A stretch of 55,268 nucleotides of DNA from IMG/VR virus record IMGVR_UViG_3300025137_000047, positions 1-55,268 of that record. One strand, 5' to 3'. Shown piece by piece: positions 2,517 to 18,825 of this stretch. The DNA is from a virus. Under the pieces are notes generated by a model. The model made no database searches, was not told where the DNA came from, and saw only the letters and a list, made by a program, of their open reading frames with translations. Position numbers and translations under genes: made by a program. Numbering within the stretch: position 1 is the stretch's first letter; each line of letters begins with the position of its first letter.

Positions 2517-3093
2517 GAAAGCGTCTACTCCTATACGGAAGGCAGTTCCAGCAACACTGGAACTGCCACCTAATCCCTTTACCTTTGAAGTTTTTGCTCT
2601 GGTAAATAAGCAGAAGACAAAATCAAAGAGAATAGAAGTCCTTAGAAAGTATGAGCATGATTCTCTCAAGGCACTATTCATTTGGAACTTTGATGAGAGT
2701 GTGATTTCTCTTCTCCCTCCTGGTGAAGTTCCTTACTCTAGTATGAGAGATGAACAAATTACCACAGGAACTTTGAGTACCAAGATTTCTCAGGCAGTTG
2801 GTACTATGGAATACAATCAAGATGATTCTCTGGGACTTGGTGATATGAAGAAAGGTAGAACCACTATCCGAAAGGAATTTACCAGGTTCTATAATTTCTG
2901 TAAAGGTGGTAACGACCAACTTAAGGGTCTTCGCAGAGAGACTATGTTCATTCAGATGCTTGAAGGTCTGCATCCACTTGACGCAGAGATCTTGTGCCTT
3001 GTAAAGGATAAGAATCTAGAAGACAAGTATAAGATTACTAAAGAACTTGTTTCTGAAGCATATCCAGACATTACATGGGGAGGTCGCAGTTGA
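2473..3093 (+). CDS. Conserved T4-like cyanophage protein (DUF6433-like), function unknown
   Basis: This 206-aa cytoplasmic-looking protein starts with a very Thr/Lys-rich leader (residues 2-20). A compact region follows with RKYEHDSLKALFIWNFD, LLPPGEVPY, RKEFTRFYNFCKGGND, RETMFIQMLEGLHP and DAEILCLVKDK, ending YPDITWGGRS. From memory these motifs match a widespread family in T4-like phages, which I believe is DUF6433. I cannot check the assignment. I chose the ATG at 2473 over the in-frame TTG at 2467. It overlaps the end of the membrane-protein gene by 44 bases, in another frame. The function is not known. Confidence 0.8.
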   Translation: MTTKPKTTTRKTTIKKASTPIRKAVPATLELPPNPFTFEVFALVNKQKTKSKRIEVLRKYEHDSLKALFIWNFDESVISLLPPGEVPYSSMRDEQITTGTLSTKISQAVGTMEYNQDDSLGLGDMKKGRTTIRKEFTRFYNFCKGGNDQLKGLRRETMFIQMLEGLHPLDAEILCLVKDKNLEDKYKITKELVSEAYPDITWGGRS

Positions 3094-3353
3094 GTAAAAT
3101 AAGAATCCTACAAGAGGATTGTGATATTAAATTAGCAGATGACAAATCACTCCCTAATACTTGCTTTGTTGTAGAATACTATAAGGATGATGCTAAGAAG
3201 TATGATCTAGTAATATCTACTAAGAAGGTAGATATCTTTGATCATTATTGGGACAAGTATAAGACTGGTTTTATTACCATCTATCAGTCTGCCGGTACTG
3301 CTAATCCTAAACTGTGGAATGCTCCTGGCAGTGAACCCAAGAAAAAGAAATGA
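3090..3353 (+). CDS. Small protein of unknown function
   Basis: An ATG at 3075 would overlap the upstream gene by 19 bases. The TTG at 3090 overlaps only the stop codon of that gene and has a perfect GGAGG at 3079-3083 six bases upstream, so I favour TTG (87 aa). The protein starts SKIRILQEDCDIKL, has the core CFVVEYYKDDAKKYDLVI and TGFITIYQSAGTANPK, and ends in a very basic EPKKKK tail. The short beta-rich pattern with a lysine tail suggests a small globular, possibly nucleic-acid-associated protein, but no family is recognised. It overlaps the next ATG at 3350. Confidence 0.65.
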   Translation: MSKIRILQEDCDIKLADDKSLPNTCFVVEYYKDDAKKYDLVISTKKVDIFDHYWDKYKTGFITIYQSAGTANPKLWNAPGSEPKKKK

Positions 3354-3532
3354 ATGACAAGAGTCTAAATGTCGATATCAATTTTGATGGTATCGAACAA
3401 GTCAAAAAGAAGTACAAGAAAATTAAAAAGTACATGAAGTCTAACCTATATCAGATTAAGGTTATAGACGGTACGGAGAAAGTAGTCTCCAACCTGATAA
3501 AGGAAAACGATAATGCAGAACTACTTGACTAA
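3350..3532 (+). CDS. Small basic protein, function unknown
   Basis: This 60-aa protein is translationally coupled to the previous gene (ATGA). A central run of lysines (VKKKYKKIKKYMK, residues 18-30) looks like an amphipathic basic helix. It ends in the acidic DNAELLD. It is the last gene of the purM-talC block. The sigma70 -35 box of the next transcription unit (TTGACT, 3525-3530) overlaps its final codons. No family is recognised. Confidence 0.6.
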   Translation: MNDKSLNVDINFDGIEQVKKKYKKIKKYMKSNLYQIKVIDGTEKVVSNLIKENDNAELLD

Positions 3533-3553
3533 ATAATGTATGAGGTCTATAAT
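3525..3553 (+). promoter_or_regulatory. Sigma70-type promoter of the riboswitch mini-operon
   Basis: TTGACT (3525-3530) and TATAAT (3548-3553) are separated by exactly 17 bases, a near-perfect bacterial housekeeping promoter. Transcription would begin near 3560, just before the aptamer core that starts at 3562. A T4-late-like CTAAATAA (3529-3536) overlaps the -35 region, so a second, late start near 3542 is possible. Confidence 0.85.
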
Positions 3554-3561
3554 AGACCTGT

Positions 3562-3634
3562 CGTTCATCTCCTAATTTGGACTAAATTAGGACTCAATTA
3601 GGAGACGCAAGTAAGTCGCGGAACGGAGCCGTTC
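3562..3634 (+). ncRNA. Glutamine-II (downstream-peptide) riboswitch candidate
   Basis: The leader has the landmarks I know for the glnA/downstream-peptide aptamer class, which binds glutamine. They are CGTTCAT at 3562-3568, a 10-bp stem (3568-3577 with 3596-3605), the core ACGCAAGTAAG at 3605-3615, and GGAACGG at 3620-3626. GAACG (3621-3625) can pair with the 5' CGTTC (3562-3566) to form the pseudoknot. It can also pair with a second CGTTC at 3630-3634. The Shine-Dalgarno GGAG (3625-3628) of the 54-aa ORF touches this helix, which suggests ligand-dependent blocking of translation. The class is known from marine picocyanobacteria and cyanophage; the ligand here is inferred from the motif only. 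Confidence 0.8.
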
Positions 3635-3639
3635 ATCCT

Positions 3640-3804
3640 ATGCTAGAAATACTATTCTATTCATCACTCACCTGTCAACAAGCTGATACAATCATGCTTA
3701 AGATGAAAGCAAATGAGAATATCTCAAATGCTTTTAAGGTAGAGTTGATTGAGGTCATGAAGGAATCAACACCTGAATGCTATCCATGGGACGCAAACGA
3801 CTAA
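3640..3804 (+). CDS. 54-aa peptide controlled by the riboswitch leader
   Basis: This small ORF (MLEILFYSSLTCQQADTIML at the start, ECYPWDAND at the end) begins 11 bases after GGAG at 3625-3628, inside the predicted riboswitch expression platform. Short ORFs of this size are exactly what the downstream-peptide RNA class precedes. The N-terminal 20 residues are hydrophobic with one Cys; a helical KVELIEVMKE segment follows and a second Cys lies near the end. In cyanobacteria a related glutamine riboswitch controls a small inhibitor of glutamine synthetase. A similar role here is a hypothesis only, because I see no clear similarity to the basic GS-inactivating factors. Confidence 0.75.
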   Translation: MLEILFYSSLTCQQADTIMLKMKANENISNAFKVELIEVMKESTPECYPWDAND

Positions 3805-13829: not shown

Positions 13830-14552
13830 ATGCCTTTACCAAAGATTTCTACCCCGACTTATGAGTTGGAATTACCGTCAACAGGAAAGAAGATTAAGTA
13901 TCGTCCATTCCTAGTTAGAGAAGAAAAGATTCTCATTCTTGCTTTAGAAAGCGAAGATGAAAAGCAGATTGCAACTGCAGTTAAAAATACATTAAAGGAT
14001 TGTATTCAGACCAGAGGTGTCAAGGTCGAGAATCTTCCCACCTTCGATATCGAATATCTGTTCTTGAATATCCGAGGTAAGTCTGTAGGTGAAGCAGTTG
14101 ATTTGATTGTCACCTGCCCTGATGATGGCGAGACAACAGTTCCTATCAAAGTTTATATTGATGAGATTGAAGTTGTCAAAGATAAGGATCATACACCAGA
14201 TATTGACTTGGATGGTAGTCTGACGCTCCGTATGAAGTATCCATCACTAGAACAGTTTGTTTCTAGTAACTTTAGTTTTGATGAAAATGATGAAGACTTA
14301 GATAAATCATTTGAAATTATTGGTTCATGTATTGATGTGATCTTCAATGCAGATGACGCATGGTCTACCTCTGATGTTACAAAGAAAGAATTAATGACAT
14401 GGATGGATGGTTTGAACTCTTCTCAATTCAAAGAAATTGAAAAGTTCTTTACTACTATGCCAAAACTTTCACATACTATTAAGGTTACTAACCCAAAAAC
14501 AAAGGTCGAAAGTGAAATCGTATTAGAAGGGTTACAAAGTTTTTTCGGTTAA
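13830..14552 (+). CDS. 26: gp26 baseplate hub assembly protein
   Basis: This 240-aa protein matches the T4 gp26 family. The N-terminus has PTYELELPSTGKKIKYRPFL and VREEKILILALESED, the middle has FDIEYLFLNIRGKSVGEAVD and CPDDGETTVPIKVYIDEIEV, and the C-terminal half has LRMKYPSLEQF and KELMTWMDGL. gp26 is needed for central hub assembly and probably acts as a chaperone comparable to lambda gpG. The gene ends in a T TTT TTC slip site (14540-14546) six bases before... the stop region, and the -1 frame leads without a stop into the next ORF. A longer gp26 fusion of 300 aa is therefore possible. A late box precedes the gene. Confidence 0.85.
   Translation: MPLPKISTPTYELELPSTGKKIKYRPFLVREEKILILALESEDEKQIATAVKNTLKDCIQTRGVKVENLPTFDIEYLFLNIRGKSVGEAVDLIVTCPDDGETTVPIKVYIDEIEVVKDKDHTPDIDLDGSLTLRMKYPSLEQFVSSNFSFDENDEDLDKSFEIIGSCIDVIFNADDAWSTSDVTKKELMTWMDGLNSSQFKEIEKFFTTMPKLSHTIKVTNPKTKVESEIVLEGLQSFFG
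14540..14546 (+). promoter_or_regulatory. Candidate -1 ribosomal frameshift site (T TTT TTC)
   Basis: The heptamer is in the correct phase with gp26 codons AGT-TTT-TTC (14538-14546), just before the gp26 stop at 14550-14552. A -1 slip continues as CGG TTA ATT ATG, directly in frame with the 58-aa ORF. A Shine-Dalgarno-like GAAGGG (14526-14531) lies eight bases upstream, a position known to stimulate slipping in other genes. No strong downstream hairpin is visible. Confidence 0.65.
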
Positions 14553-14554
14553 TT

Positions 14555-14731
14555 ATGGCACATATTGATCTTGAATCATATTACAAGGTCAATTTTTCTC
14601 TCATGCAGCATCATAAATATAGTTTAACAGAGATTGAAAATATGATGCCATGGGAGAGAGATATATATCTTGCGATGTTAAATCAATATGTTGAAGAAGA
14701 GAATTCAAGAATTCAACAACAAGGAATGTAA
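14555..14731 (+). CDS. 58-aa hub/tail assembly protein, separate or as C-terminal part of a gp26 fusion
   Basis: This ORF reads MAHIDLESYYKVNFSLMQHH, then YSLTEIENMMPWERDIYLAM, and ends NSRIQQQGM. The MPWERD.YL pattern is like the small T-domain that follows gpG-type tail assembly chaperones and is often expressed only by frameshift. The gap from the gp26 stop to the ATG is two bases and no good Shine-Dalgarno for independent initiation is seen, though GAAGGG lies 23 bases upstream. Its stop is immediately followed by the next ATG. An alternative reading is a normally initiated small chaperone comparable to T4 gp51 in role, not in length. Confidence 0.72.
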   Translation: MAHIDLESYYKVNFSLMQHHKYSLTEIENMMPWERDIYLAMLNQYVEEENSRIQQQGM

Positions 14732-16492
14732 ATGTTAAGTTCTGGAGCAAAAGCAAGAAGATTCCTCCGACCTGGAAACGCTGATGCAGTTTTTGCACGT
14801 AAGCGAGGAATGATTGCGCCTTCTCCTCTGAAAGAAAGTAAAGTTGAACCTGATAAAAAGACGAAGAGTCGTTTTGGTAAAGCAACTAGTGCTGACTTCA
14901 CAAACTTCTTTGGTAATAAAAGAACTGTAAAGGCAGTGCGTGGTGCAGTTAATGCACTTAAAGAAATTTTAGTAGAAACATTTATTGCTGCAAAAAGTTT
15001 AGGTGCAACAGTTAGAAATATTGTAAAACAATTAGGAGGACTTAATGCATCTGGTGGTGCGGGTGGTCTCCTTGGAAAACTAGGTATGGTTGGACTGGTT
15101 GCAGCAGTTGTAGCCGGTGTTGCAGCAATATTTGGTCCCAAGATAAAAGAAGTATTTGAGAGTTTTAAGAAAGGGGCAGATGCTATATTTGAAAACATCA
15201 AAGGTTTTCTAGATGGAATAGAGCAGAAGATTAAATCCATCTATAACTTTGTTGCAGACATGTATAATAATAAGTTCAAGGGTCTTCTCAGAACTTATAA
15301 TGATGCAGTCCAAGCAATTGCAGATAAAACTGGAATACCACTTCCCAAAATAAACATGGGAATGTTCAAAGATGTACCTGCATATACGGAACAATTTCCC
15401 GAAGGTCTCAATCCCTTAGCAGGTAAAACCCTGGACTCTGTGATGGGTGACGTGGGTAATATGCTCAAAGGTGGATTGGAGAATACTACAGGTGTTATGG
15501 GTGATCTATTTAATAATCTACTTGACGGTCTTGGTCTTACAGACACGGCAAATGCAATAACTGATACCCTAGGAATGGGATCACTCTTTGGAAAGAGTAG
15601 AGAATTAGGATCTGGCGGAGGTCTTAGCACTTTCTTCCCAGGAATGAAACCAAGTAGCAGTAGTTCTACTGGTGGTGGTGTGACTGACCCAACTATTTCT
15701 GGTGATGAAGAAGAATACTTAATGCGTTTAATGAATGCTGAAGCAGGCGGTGAGGGTGAACTTGGAATGGCAGCAGTTGGAAGGTCTGTTCTTAATAGAG
15801 CAGCTCTTATTCAAAGTGGGGAAGTTGGTGCTGGTCAATTCATGGCAGAGAGTGGTAGTATTAAAGATGTTATTGAAGGAACTAATCAGTATCAACCGTT
15901 TAGAGAAGGAAAACTTAAGAAAGAACTAACAGAAGAAGAAAGAGTAAGAGCAAAGAAATCTCTAGAGATAGCACGCAATCAGGCATCATTACGTGGCAAT
16001 CTAGAAGCATCTGGAATGTCTGCTGATCAGATCAATAATATTATGGCATCTACTGGATTTAGAACTCATTCTGCAAAGTATGATGGATCTCAAGATGTTA
16101 ATCCTACTAGATTAGGCGGACATCAATTTAACACTGCTGGTAATGCTAACATGCTAACACCAACAGCAAAATTCAAAGAACCATCTACTACACAACAACA
16201 GCAATATACTATTCCTACGAATGAAATTCCAAAAGAGGGAGCACCACAAGCAGAATGGGATGCATACTTTAAAAAAGTAGATAAATTAAAACCTCCTAAA
16301 AAAGGACCGAATGTATCCTTCATTTCTGTTCCAGGAGCACAACAGATCGCACAAGCACCACCACGTAGACCACAACCTCTGATGACAGGAAATGGTCCAG
16401 GAACCGAAGGTTCTGATTATAGTTTCTTCCCATCTGGAAATCCTGATCAATATGATATCTTTGGGGCACAACTTGGAGCTCAAGTCGGATAA
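14732..16492 (+). CDS. Tail/hub protein with SleB-like cell-wall hydrolase domain (possible tape measure)
   Basis: This 586-aa protein starts basic. It has helical segments and a strongly hydrophobic Gly/Ala stretch at about residues 110-135 (LGKLGMVGLVAAVVAGVAAI). From about residue 327 it has a SleB/hydrolase-2-like domain: EEYLMRLMNAEAGGEGELGM with probable catalytic E337, then AAVGRSVLNRA and QYQPF. The last 100 residues are Pro/Gln-rich. The length is close to T4 gp29 (590 aa), the tape measure, and its place directly after the gp26/58-aa pair is where tape measures normally lie. The combination suggests a tape-measure protein that also cuts peptidoglycan at injection. The stop overlaps the next ATG (TAATG). 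Confidence 0.7.
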   Translation: MLSSGAKARRFLRPGNADAVFARKRGMIAPSPLKESKVEPDKKTKSRFGKATSADFTNFFGNKRTVKAVRGAVNALKEILVETFIAAKSLGATVRNIVKQLGGLNASGGAGGLLGKLGMVGLVAAVVAGVAAIFGPKIKEVFESFKKGADAIFENIKGFLDGIEQKIKSIYNFVADMYNNKFKGLLRTYNDAVQAIADKTGIPLPKINMGMFKDVPAYTEQFPEGLNPLAGKTLDSVMGDVGNMLKGGLENTTGVMGDLFNNLLDGLGLTDTANAITDTLGMGSLFGKSRELGSGGGLSTFFPGMKPSSSSSTGGGVTDPTISGDEEEYLMRLMNAEAGGEGELGMAAVGRSVLNRAALIQSGEVGAGQFMAESGSIKDVIEGTNQYQPFREGKLKKELTEEERVRAKKSLEIARNQASLRGNLEASGMSADQINNIMASTGFRTHSAKYDGSQDVNPTRLGGHQFNTAGNANMLTPTAKFKEPSTTQQQQYTIPTNEIPKEGAPQAEWDAYFKKVDKLKPPKKGPNVSFISVPGAQQIAQAPPRRPQPLMTGNGPGTEGSDYSFFPSGNPDQYDIFGAQLGAQVG

Positions 16493-18825
16493 TGACTAAA
16501 GTAAAACTTTTTCAACAGAAACCGAAAATAGAAAAATTTAAACCTAGTCCAAGACTTAGGGCAGTAGATAACACTGATCTGGATCGTAAGGGGGAGCTTG
16601 AAAAGTTTAGAAGATGGTTAGAAGGTACTGCTAAACAGAAATCTGGTCTTCCCAAAAAGAAAGAACTTGATAAATTAAATAACGAGGTATCAAAGGGAAG
16701 AGTTAATAAGTTTGGATTGCTTGGTATACTAGGCGCACTTCCTCTTGTTGGTCCTCTTCTAGGTATTGGCGGTGGTGCTCTCGCTAGTGTTGCTACCGGC
16801 GCTATTGCTGCCATCAGTGGTGGTCTTGTAACTGCTGGTGGTCTTGCTGTTGGTGGTGGTCTTAAATTATTTGGTCTTGGTGCGGTTGCTGCTGGCGGTG
16901 GTGCAAAACTATTTGGTAAAAAAATATTTGGTGGAGGTGCAAAACCTGGAGTAACACCCCAGACACCGAAAGTATCACCAAGACCAGCATCATCACCTCC
17001 CAGGTCAAACGCAGCAGGTAATCAAGTATCCCCTGGACAAACTGCTAGAACCAATAGTAATAGGGCAACTAAACCAGGGCAGACACCTAAGGGTGTTACA
17101 CAACCCAAGAGACCTAGTGCCCGTGCAAGACTCGGATCACAGATGGAGACGGGAACTGCATTTGGTGGGAAGGGAAGTCAAGCGCAGAAGAAACTCTTCA
17201 AACTTCAGAGTAAACTCAAGAAGATGTTCTCTGGTAAGAACCCAATGCAAGGGTTTCTGTCAAAAATATTTGGAACCAAGGCAGGTCGTAAAGGAATAGG
17301 AATGTTCCTCAAGAAATTTGTCTTAAGGATTCCATTCATTGGTGCTCTGATTGATTTTGCTCTGAACGTTTTTGTATTCAAAGAAAACCCAAAGAGAGCA
17401 TTATTCAAAGCAATCGGTGCTGGTCTCGGAGCGTGGATAGGTGGTGGTGTTGGTGCTTTCTTGGGTGGTGGATTTGCAAGTTGGATAACTGCTCCAATTG
17501 GTGCGTTCCTTGGGGGAGCAGGTGGTGATGCATTTGGTTCTTGGGTGTATGATTCAATCTTTGGTAATCCTAGCGCCTCAGCATCTGCTCCCGATCCAAA
17601 AGGTGAAGGAAATATTCTGGATGAATTACTTGGTGGGGATGCAGCAGCAGGTGAACTACCTGCACCCGGTGAACCTCCCGCTCAACCATTAAGTGGTCGA
17701 GTTTCTACGACTGGTTCTGGAAATGGTCCACTCGTAGATGTGATATCCCAGAAAGCAATGACAGAGACTTATGGTGTTCCTACTGGTCCAGTTAGAACCA
17801 GAGGTAGGAGTGGTGGTCATGGCGGTGTAGACATAGGCACTGGTAGTCAAACTGGATATTATGTTGCATACAGAAGAAGTGGAACGGTCAGTCTAGTGCG
17901 GTCTCTTTCTGGGTATGGTAATACCGTTATTATTAAAATTGGTAATCTAGATTTCCTCTTTGCCCATCTAGCAAGAAAATCAGATTTGAAACCAGGACAA
18001 CCATATAATGGAGAGATTATTGGTGAGATTGGAAACACTGGTAGAACTTTTGGTGGCGGCGGTCAACACTTACACTTTGAGGTGAGACCTGCTGGAGGTG
18101 GAGGTGGGTCTGATATTAATCCAGAACCATATGTTTCTTCTCTGGTTATAGGTAGACTCGATCCAAATTCAGAACAATCTCGTGTTGGTGGAGTGGAATC
18201 GGGTGCAGAAAAACTAAATGCTGCTGGCCAGATTGAAGAAGAGAAACCCAAGTCTTTTATTGAGAAACTGACTGACATGCTACCAGAATCTGCAAAGTCG
18301 GCAATGAGTGGTGTGATTGAGTCATTTAAAATCTTTGGATATATGGCAGACAAAGAACTGATGGATAGTTTAGTTGTTAATCCAGATGGAAGTGTGAGCA
18401 AGGTATCACCTGAAGAGCAGAAGGCACGTCATGAGAAGACTCTTGAGGAATCTTTACGGGGATTCCGGGGAATCGAAATGGAAAACAGTGAGGATAGTTT
18501 AGTTGTTAATGAAGACAATACTGTGAGTAGAAATAAACCTGCTGGCGGTCTTGATACCTTTACACAAGGTATCTCCATGGACAGTATAGTTTTTCCTAAG
18601 AAAGATTTCACAGTTGAAATGCTTTCACCGGAGGCAGAGGCACTACTAAATAATTCAATTATTATGATGCAGGGGCAACCTTCTATCCAGATGATGAGCG
18701 GTGGTGGAGGAACTGATCCGATAGCAATTGCTCCAATGCCACCACAACAACCGGTTATAGTTCTTGGTGGTCATCAAGATACCTTGGCTGCAGTTAAACT
18801 GCTACAAGCACACGCATTATCATAA
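16492..18825 (+). CDS. Tail/hub protein with M23 peptidase domain
   Basis: This 777-aa protein has two Gly/Ala-rich hydrophobic regions (about residues 75-145 and 280-350), a Pro/Ser/Thr-rich linker at about 155-205, and an M23 metallopeptidase domain at about 425-550. The zinc and active-site residues are visible: GGHGGVD (H443, D447), FAH (H492) and HLHFEV (H526, H528). M23 enzymes cut peptide cross-links in peptidoglycan. A C-terminal region has two DSLVVN repeats and a Met/Gly-rich tail. The hydrophobic parts could insert in the host membrane during DNA entry, as proposed for tape-measure proteins. It may replace the lysozyme domain missing from the gp5-like protein at 20367. Confidence 0.78.
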   Translation: MTKVKLFQQKPKIEKFKPSPRLRAVDNTDLDRKGELEKFRRWLEGTAKQKSGLPKKKELDKLNNEVSKGRVNKFGLLGILGALPLVGPLLGIGGGALASVATGAIAAISGGLVTAGGLAVGGGLKLFGLGAVAAGGGAKLFGKKIFGGGAKPGVTPQTPKVSPRPASSPPRSNAAGNQVSPGQTARTNSNRATKPGQTPKGVTQPKRPSARARLGSQMETGTAFGGKGSQAQKKLFKLQSKLKKMFSGKNPMQGFLSKIFGTKAGRKGIGMFLKKFVLRIPFIGALIDFALNVFVFKENPKRALFKAIGAGLGAWIGGGVGAFLGGGFASWITAPIGAFLGGAGGDAFGSWVYDSIFGNPSASASAPDPKGEGNILDELLGGDAAAGELPAPGEPPAQPLSGRVSTTGSGNGPLVDVISQKAMTETYGVPTGPVRTRGRSGGHGGVDIGTGSQTGYYVAYRRSGTVSLVRSLSGYGNTVIIKIGNLDFLFAHLARKSDLKPGQPYNGEIIGEIGNTGRTFGGGGQHLHFEVRPAGGGGGSDINPEPYVSSLVIGRLDPNSEQSRVGGVESGAEKLNAAGQIEEEKPKSFIEKLTDMLPESAKSAMSGVIESFKIFGYMADKELMDSLVVNPDGSVSKVSPEEQKARHEKTLEESLRGFRGIEMENSEDSLVVNEDNTVSRNKPAGGLDTFTQGISMDSIVFPKKDFTVEMLSPEAEALLNNSIIMMQGQPSIQMMSGGGGTDPIAIAPMPPQQPVIVLGGHQDTLAAVKLLQAHALS

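Follow-up and report, generated by a model that had tools for sequence, protein, structure and literature searches.

The 55,268-nucleotide stretch of DNA analysed here (the window) is the whole of IMG/VR virus record IMGVR_UViG_3300025137_000047, T4-like cyanophage DNA that is possibly a fragment. Its gene for gp26 ends in the slippery heptamer T_TTT_TTC, and a 58-aa open reading frame (ORF), identified below as gp51, follows in the −1 frame. The best explanation for this arrangement is a programmed −1 frameshift that would fuse gp26 to the gp51 domain, yielding a tail assembly chaperone pair of the lambda G/GT type; we put the probability of this at about 0.88. A G/GT-like joining of the two had been suggested from the letters of the window (the sequence-only reading) and is strengthened by comparison with relatives: the heptamer was present in 174/174 usable sequences, with no intervening −1-frame stop.

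Geometry of the slip site

The 3′ end of gp26 and the extension are laid out as follows.

13830-14552, + strand: gp26, 240 aa; predicted short form, tail assembly chaperone N-domain (TAC-N)
14526-14531, + strand: Shine-Dalgarno (SD)-like GAAGGG, 8 nt 5′ of the heptamer
14540-14546, + strand: slippery heptamer T_TTT_TTC, in X_XXY_YYZ phase with the gp26 codons; presumed −1 shift site
14550-14552, + strand: gp26 0-frame stop TAA, three bases past the heptamer
14546-14731, + strand: −1-frame extension CGG TTA ATT ATG ... stop; gp51 domain, in the predicted 300-aa long form (TAC-NC)
14552-14605, + strand: predicted downstream RNA structure, possible frameshift stimulator
14555-14731, + strand: 58-aa ORF with its own ATG; gp51, possible third, separately started product

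Read directly, the codons at 14538-14552 are AGT TTT TTC GGT TAA, and a shift of one base back gives TTT TTT CGG TTA ATT ATG GCA, open until the stop at 14729-14731. The phase of the heptamer, the unbroken run through CGG TTA ATT ATG into the 58-aa ORF and the position of GAAGGG eight bases upstream were thus all confirmed, as were the length of the predicted fusion (239 + 3 + 58 = 300 aa) and its junction peptide, SFFRLIMAH. The heptamer does lie just ahead of the stop, as the sequence-only reading had said; its 'six bases' was loose, the distance being three.

Most ribosomes would terminate at the gp26 stop and release the 240-aa short form. Some would slip back one base at T_TTT_TTC, where both Phe-tRNAs could re-pair on UUU, and would read on through the gp51 frame; the resulting 300-aa long form would have gp26 residues 1-239 in common with the short one. 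The element pairing with the anti-SD about 8 nt upstream and the folded RNA downstream probably hold the ribosome up and make slipping more frequent. Like lambda gpG and gpGT, the short and long products probably serve as chaperones of tail assembly; they would cover the tape measure protein and bring in parts of the tail tube or hub. Production of the fusion, its rate and its binding partners are what we infer here from sequence.

The heptamer and the open −1 frame are conserved

Relatives were collected from IMG/VR as the best 80 of 599 for window gp26, the best 80 of 594 for S-RSM4 gp26, 11 for ME01 gp26 and 3 from two more distant queries. This gave 175 sequences including the window; one locus (L032) cut before the stop was excluded, leaving 174 usable, that is 173 IMG/VR loci and the window. 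Four loci cut within the extension (L152, L027, L060 and L075) fall outside the set of 170 uncut sequences. L001 has a gp26 identical to that of the window and may be the same virus.

Alignment of slip site and frame across cyanophage gp26 genes, which the sequence-only reading had named as a check, supported it. An in-phase TTTTTTY occurred in 174/174 sequences (TTTTTTC in 173, TTTTTTT in 1), always 7, 10 or 13 nt ahead of the gp26 stop, and was kept in 35/35 clusters at 75% nucleotide identity. All three stop codons are used after it (TAG 104, TAA 43, TGA 27). The −1 frame was open in all 174 and ended 56-68 codons beyond the gp26 stop in 170/170 uncut sequences; the +1 frame closed quickly in most. 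Relatives without the heptamer or with a −1-frame stop, which had been set out as grounds for abandoning the frameshift, were absent from the 174; three distant Vibrio relatives, considered below, lack a canonical heptamer.

Codon choice at the site is equally constrained. Within the first set of 80 sequences, window included, the heptamer codons were TTT in 80/80 and TTC in 79/80, against a background Phe codon use across gp26 of 66% TTT and 34% TTC. The preceding codon was AGT, TCT, GCT, AAT or GAT, T-ended in 80/80, while the residue it encodes varied among Ser, Ala, Asn and Asp. By our own estimate, background codon use would produce the pattern in one lineage with a chance of ~0.15; since it is fixed in 35 clusters, chance does not account for it. 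On these comparisons we regard the heptamer as a genuine −1 frameshift site, under strong conservation and of the type seen in G/GT chaperones. An assembly error or a pseudogene was ruled out, the site being shared by all 174 sequences, including contigs of many samples.

The heptamer was also found in 10/12 named phages examined singly: BUCT-ZZ01, ME01, Vibrio R10Z (Schizotequatrovirus), Agrobacterium OLIVR6, Stenotrophomonas Moby, Aeromonas G2, Rhizobium RL2RES (as TTTTTTG), P-SSM2, S-RSM4 and P-RSM1. Ceceduovirus Asswx_1 carries it too.

In part of the family the extension is selected as a −1-frame protein ahead of any ATG

The 58-aa ORF could instead be a separate gene, translated by termination-reinitiation from the ATG at 14555, two bases past the gp26 stop, with no fusion made. 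An ATG at extension codon 1-8 is indeed kept in 104/174 sequences, from which gp51 could also start separately; gp51 is often annotated as its own gene in database records, and the three Vibrio relatives without the heptamer have overlapping or adjacent starts. Across the family, however, the start codon of the 58-aa ORF is not conserved. In 70/174 the extension has its first ATG at codon 16-19, which already belongs to the conserved domain. At the aligned position the window's clade has M (FFRLIMAHIDLESYY) and the sister clade L (FFRIALFHNTLEGYY).

These 70 late-ATG sequences allowed a direct test. Over their extension codons 2-16, substitutions at −1-frame positions 1/2/3 numbered 659/291/5644 (1180 pairs, which are non-independent). 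Such an excess at position 3 without an early ATG is the signature of −1-frame translation straight after the gp26 stop. With GTG and TTG allowed, the first start was a TTG at codon 8 in 41 of the 70 and a TTG at codon 18 in 27; a codon-8 TTG leaves the selected codons before it unexplained. The extension is therefore, as we read the substitution pattern, under purifying selection as a −1-frame protein, without an early ATG in 70/174. Separate initiation likewise leaves unexplained a heptamer fixed at synonymous sites and the fusion of the same domain in frame in T4 gp51, and the SD-like element of the window, 23 nt ahead of the ATG at 14555, is too distant to serve it. We consider a separately started gp51 in place of a fusion very unlikely. 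Independent gp51 as the only product was rejected, given −1-frame selection without an early ATG and the fixed heptamer.

A fusion made by frameshifting could be accompanied in the window's lineage by free gp51 from the kept ATG, giving three products. This would add to the frameshift and not replace it, and in its favour stand the universal heptamer and an ATG kept in the window's own clade. The sister clade, however, cannot make a full-length gp51 from an ATG, so free gp51 is not generally needed, and T4 has no free gp51-domain gene. A third product is thus rather doubtful.

In public annotation gp51 was cut short or missed in phages whose extension lacks an early ATG or has its ATG late. 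S-RSM4, P-RSM1 and BUCT-ZZ01, with no ATG near the extension start, have it truncated or missing, the loci concerned being L092 (3214-3400), L093 (3211-3390) and L082 (3211-3381).

The heptamer is flanked by selected RNA signals

Pairing with the anti-SD was stronger than in synonymous shuffles over a 15-nt stretch whose end lies 2 nt ahead of the heptamer (mean z −1.55, 89 representatives). At 7 other offsets z ranged from −0.28 to +0.29, so the excess occurs only beside the heptamer.

Downstream, the 70 nt after the heptamer had a mean folding-energy z of −2.41 against dinucleotide shuffles (35 representatives). Among 10 other offsets, the overlapping +10 window gave −1.31 and the other nine −0.79 to +0.06. 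Against synonymous-codon shuffles the first 50 nt after the heptamer had a mean z of −3.27, with 86/88 representatives below the shuffle mean, compared with +0.15 for a control stretch of the same extension (87 representatives). An example stem, in locus L056, starts 7 nt past the heptamer: GTATGGCTCA ... TGAGTCATAC. As read from its aligned row, the window keeps eight of the eleven stem pairs tested for covariation, and L001, identical to the window over 50 nt from the heptamer, had a z of −3.04 in the synonymous test. On these tests we conclude that the SD-like element and the downstream RNA structure are under synonymous-site selection.

Could the fusion arise before translation? RNA polymerase slippage on the T6 run, adding one U, would give the same frame by normal translation of the edited mRNA, and the run is present in 174/174. 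It is, however, held at six, with seven in only 1/174; the part of PMC5009743 dealing with bacterial slippage discusses it for runs of nine A or T. Codon phase, anti-SD pairing and selection on the downstream RNA would also go unexplained. Polymerase slippage is very unlikely as the source of the fusion.

The two parts correspond to T4 gp26 and gp51

In profile searches window gp26 matched PF12322 T4_baseplate (1.5e-73) and phrog_150 'baseplate hub' (8.8e-80), the latter over profile columns 5-232 of 282. The 58-aa ORF matched phrog_634 'baseplate hub assembly catalyst' (3.6e-28) and again phrog_150, at columns 241-278 (1.6e-06). The gp26 family profile thus extends into the gp51 domain. We conclude from these profile matches that the 58-aa ORF is gp51, a named family. 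An NCBIfam scan gave no match above cut-offs for either gp26 or the 58-aa ORF.

T4 offers the same parts in another arrangement. Its gp26 (208 aa) matched only columns 14-235 of phrog_150, whereas its gp51 (249 aa) matched columns 13-280 in one frame and, like the 58-aa ORF, also matched phrog_634; both T4 proteins belong to PF12322. The N-domains of T4 and the window are thus alike in PF12322 and phrog_150, and T4 gp51 covers the C-terminal extension; T4 differs in having two divergent genes, the window one gene with a −1 extension. Searching with the predicted fusion by tblastn, we obtained a match to coliphage gene 51 that spans the junction (residues 76-286), with a weak E of ~0.1-1. A T4 gp26 query matched the gene 51 region of relative L100 directly (5.65e-07). 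A weak match of T4 gp26 (L081:3803-4429) to phrog_1140, the gp28 family (0.00094), hints at distant kinship among hub assembly proteins.

Among 13 complete records, T4 alone had two N-domain genes; each of the remaining 12 had one. The window has a single N-domain gene, the two-gene arrangement not being seen in this 55 kb record, which may be a fragment. Ten T4-type IMG/VR loci (10/10) had genes 26 and 51 both present on opposite strands; in one of them the contig ends within gene 26. In L102, a T4-type contig, gene 51 (3001-3746) matched in two overlapping pieces, suggesting frame disruption or a sequencing error. A tree of 38 N-domains, unrooted, placed frameshift-type proteins, 26 and 51 in three separate clades (gp51 rows trimmed to 205 residues; L095, L096, L097 and L102 not used). 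To judge from these comparisons T4 encodes the short form and the long one in a gene each, the paralogues 26 and 51, with no frameshift. A part of PMC3004832 lists both T4 proteins as hub assembly chaperones.

A passage of the Atkins 2016 review (PMC5009743) describes wide conservation of G-T frameshifting among long-tailed phages, 'except T4'. There is about an even chance that T4 is no true exception, T4-related phages carrying the site and the T4 branch having paralogous genes instead of a recoding signal. The carriers, on similarly balanced odds, would be cyanophages, Schizotequatrovirus, Ceceduovirus, Menderavirus and rhizobial phages, with the SD-like element and RNA structure in cyanophages. 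If so, the exchange of frameshifting and gene duplication would be a testable evolutionary step.

A predicted chaperone fold

An AlphaFold2 model of window gp26 had a pLDDT of 85.7 (39-sequence alignment). When it was compared with 567 chains by VIA-align, the top matches were 3fgx (Z 7.9), 2ob9 (Z 7.8) and 3klu (Z 7.0), aligned over 84-86 residues within gp26 residues 1-95; these Z values are middling, followed by 5ir0 at 5.2 and other chains from 4.1 down. All three are named as phage tail assembly chaperones in a part of PMC9603447, and 2ob9 is the HK97 tail assembly chaperone. The predicted gp26 N-domain thus resembles solved tail assembly chaperones. A sequence-based search of solved structures returned nothing meaningful.

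Evidence weighing against the frameshift

Besides the early ATG kept in many relatives, several results count against a frameshifted chaperone pair. Three Vibrio phages, 207E48.1, K369 and SD25, keep the gp51 frame and lack an X_XXY_YYZ heptamer. They share a shorter run (GTTTTT, CTTTTT or CTTTTC) right ahead of the gp26 stop, and a gp51 start codon overlapping or adjacent to it. Here the mechanism may be a slip of a single tRNA, which has been proposed for phage Adele, or else coupled reinitiation. Two non-heptamer Vibrio rows group with the frameshift-type clade in the N-domain tree. The three loci are L088 (3190-3402), L089 (3130-3360) and L112 (2980-3195), two of them recorded as Ackermannviridae.

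The flanking signals are also uneven. An SD-like 4-5-mer is missing in 26/89 representatives. The fold of the window itself (14547-14616) has an energy of −11.1 kcal/mol and a z of only −1.39 against dinucleotide shuffles, 17/200 of which fold as well. Covariation in the stem was weak: double changes occurred in 12 cells, compared with 38 when the helix was slid by +2 (69 window-clade sequences of 90 with ATG as fourth extension codon; ME01-type L193-L203 and identical rows excluded). Because stems shift register between clades, covariation is unconvincing alone, and the RNA-structure claim rests on the energy tests.

Finally, Foldseek with the gp26 model found no PDB match below 0.001 (E above 1), and the long-form model of T4-type gp51 gave no chaperone match, the best Z being 3.6.

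Relation to known systems

Like lambda G/GT and P2 E/E′, the window has a chaperone-like N-domain fold (predicted in its case) and a site within the tail/baseplate gene block. It differs from both in its heptamer, T_TTT_TTC, in having an SD-like element ahead of the heptamer and an RNA structure after it, in the annotation of its family as T4 'baseplate hub', and in a next gene that is only a candidate tape measure.

The dnaX cassette combines an SD-like element about 10 nt upstream, a homopolymer-type heptamer and a downstream stem. These details are in part supported by PMC5009743. The window shares all three, and in its family both stimulator-like features, SD-like element and downstream stem, are under selection by synonymous shuffles. 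Unlike dnaX, frameshifting here would lengthen the product, and the SD-like motif is dispensed with in some representatives, as counted above.

In phage Adele (Vandenendeviridae / Andersonviridae), a passage of PMC12846349 describes a conserved −1 shift at a polyT motif that joins short and long chaperones. That motif is GTTTTT, as opposed to TTTTTTC in the window, and the phage families differ.

In 2022 Vladimirov, Gautam and Davidson reportedly established which proteins are the tail assembly chaperones in T4-like phages, as we know through citing papers. The sequence-only reading had known of no clear description for T4-like gp26; this did not hold, the chaperone idea having been published already by the account of Vladimirov 2022 in parts of PMC10885494 and PMC12846349. 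The former (PRFect 2024) states, from Vladimirov 2022, that in some T4-like phages a short and a long gene take the place of the frameshift; the latter (Adele paper, 2025) credits the same work with polyT slippery sites in T4-like chaperone genes. Our literature search found no description of a slip site in cyanophage gp26; with Vladimirov 2022 known via citing papers, we do not call the site undescribed. Subject to the content of that paper, what appears new is the occurrence of the site in this virus, together with the quantitative evidence, namely the start-codon test and selection on the SD-like element and RNA structure.

If the frameshift is real, gp26 and gp51 are mis-annotated in hundreds of sequenced cyanophages, and gp51 would be the end part of a chaperone made by frameshifting and not a 'catalyst' in its own right; several records miss or truncate it. 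One gene here would give the short and long chaperones for which T4 uses two; that T4-like chaperones can be two genes is the part already in print.

Neighbouring genes

The extension is followed directly by a large ORF.

14732-16492, + strand: 586 aa, candidate tape measure or tail protein with a hydrolase-like part

The sequence-only reading placed the pair directly before a likely tape-measure gene. The ORF at 14732 does adjoin, but its tape-measure identity is weakly supported: its best tape-measure match was phrog_1272 (7.3e-08), and its stronger matches were to hydrolase-type or unknown families (phrog_34252 'endolysin', 8.8e-56; phrog_2588, 4.9e-49). Its match to PF07486 (0.0019) was below cut-off. 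Both this ORF and that at 16492-18825 have weak tape-measure matches alongside cell-wall hydrolase parts, these being a SleB-like Hydrolase_2 (below cut-off) and a Peptidase_M23 (1.5e-12).
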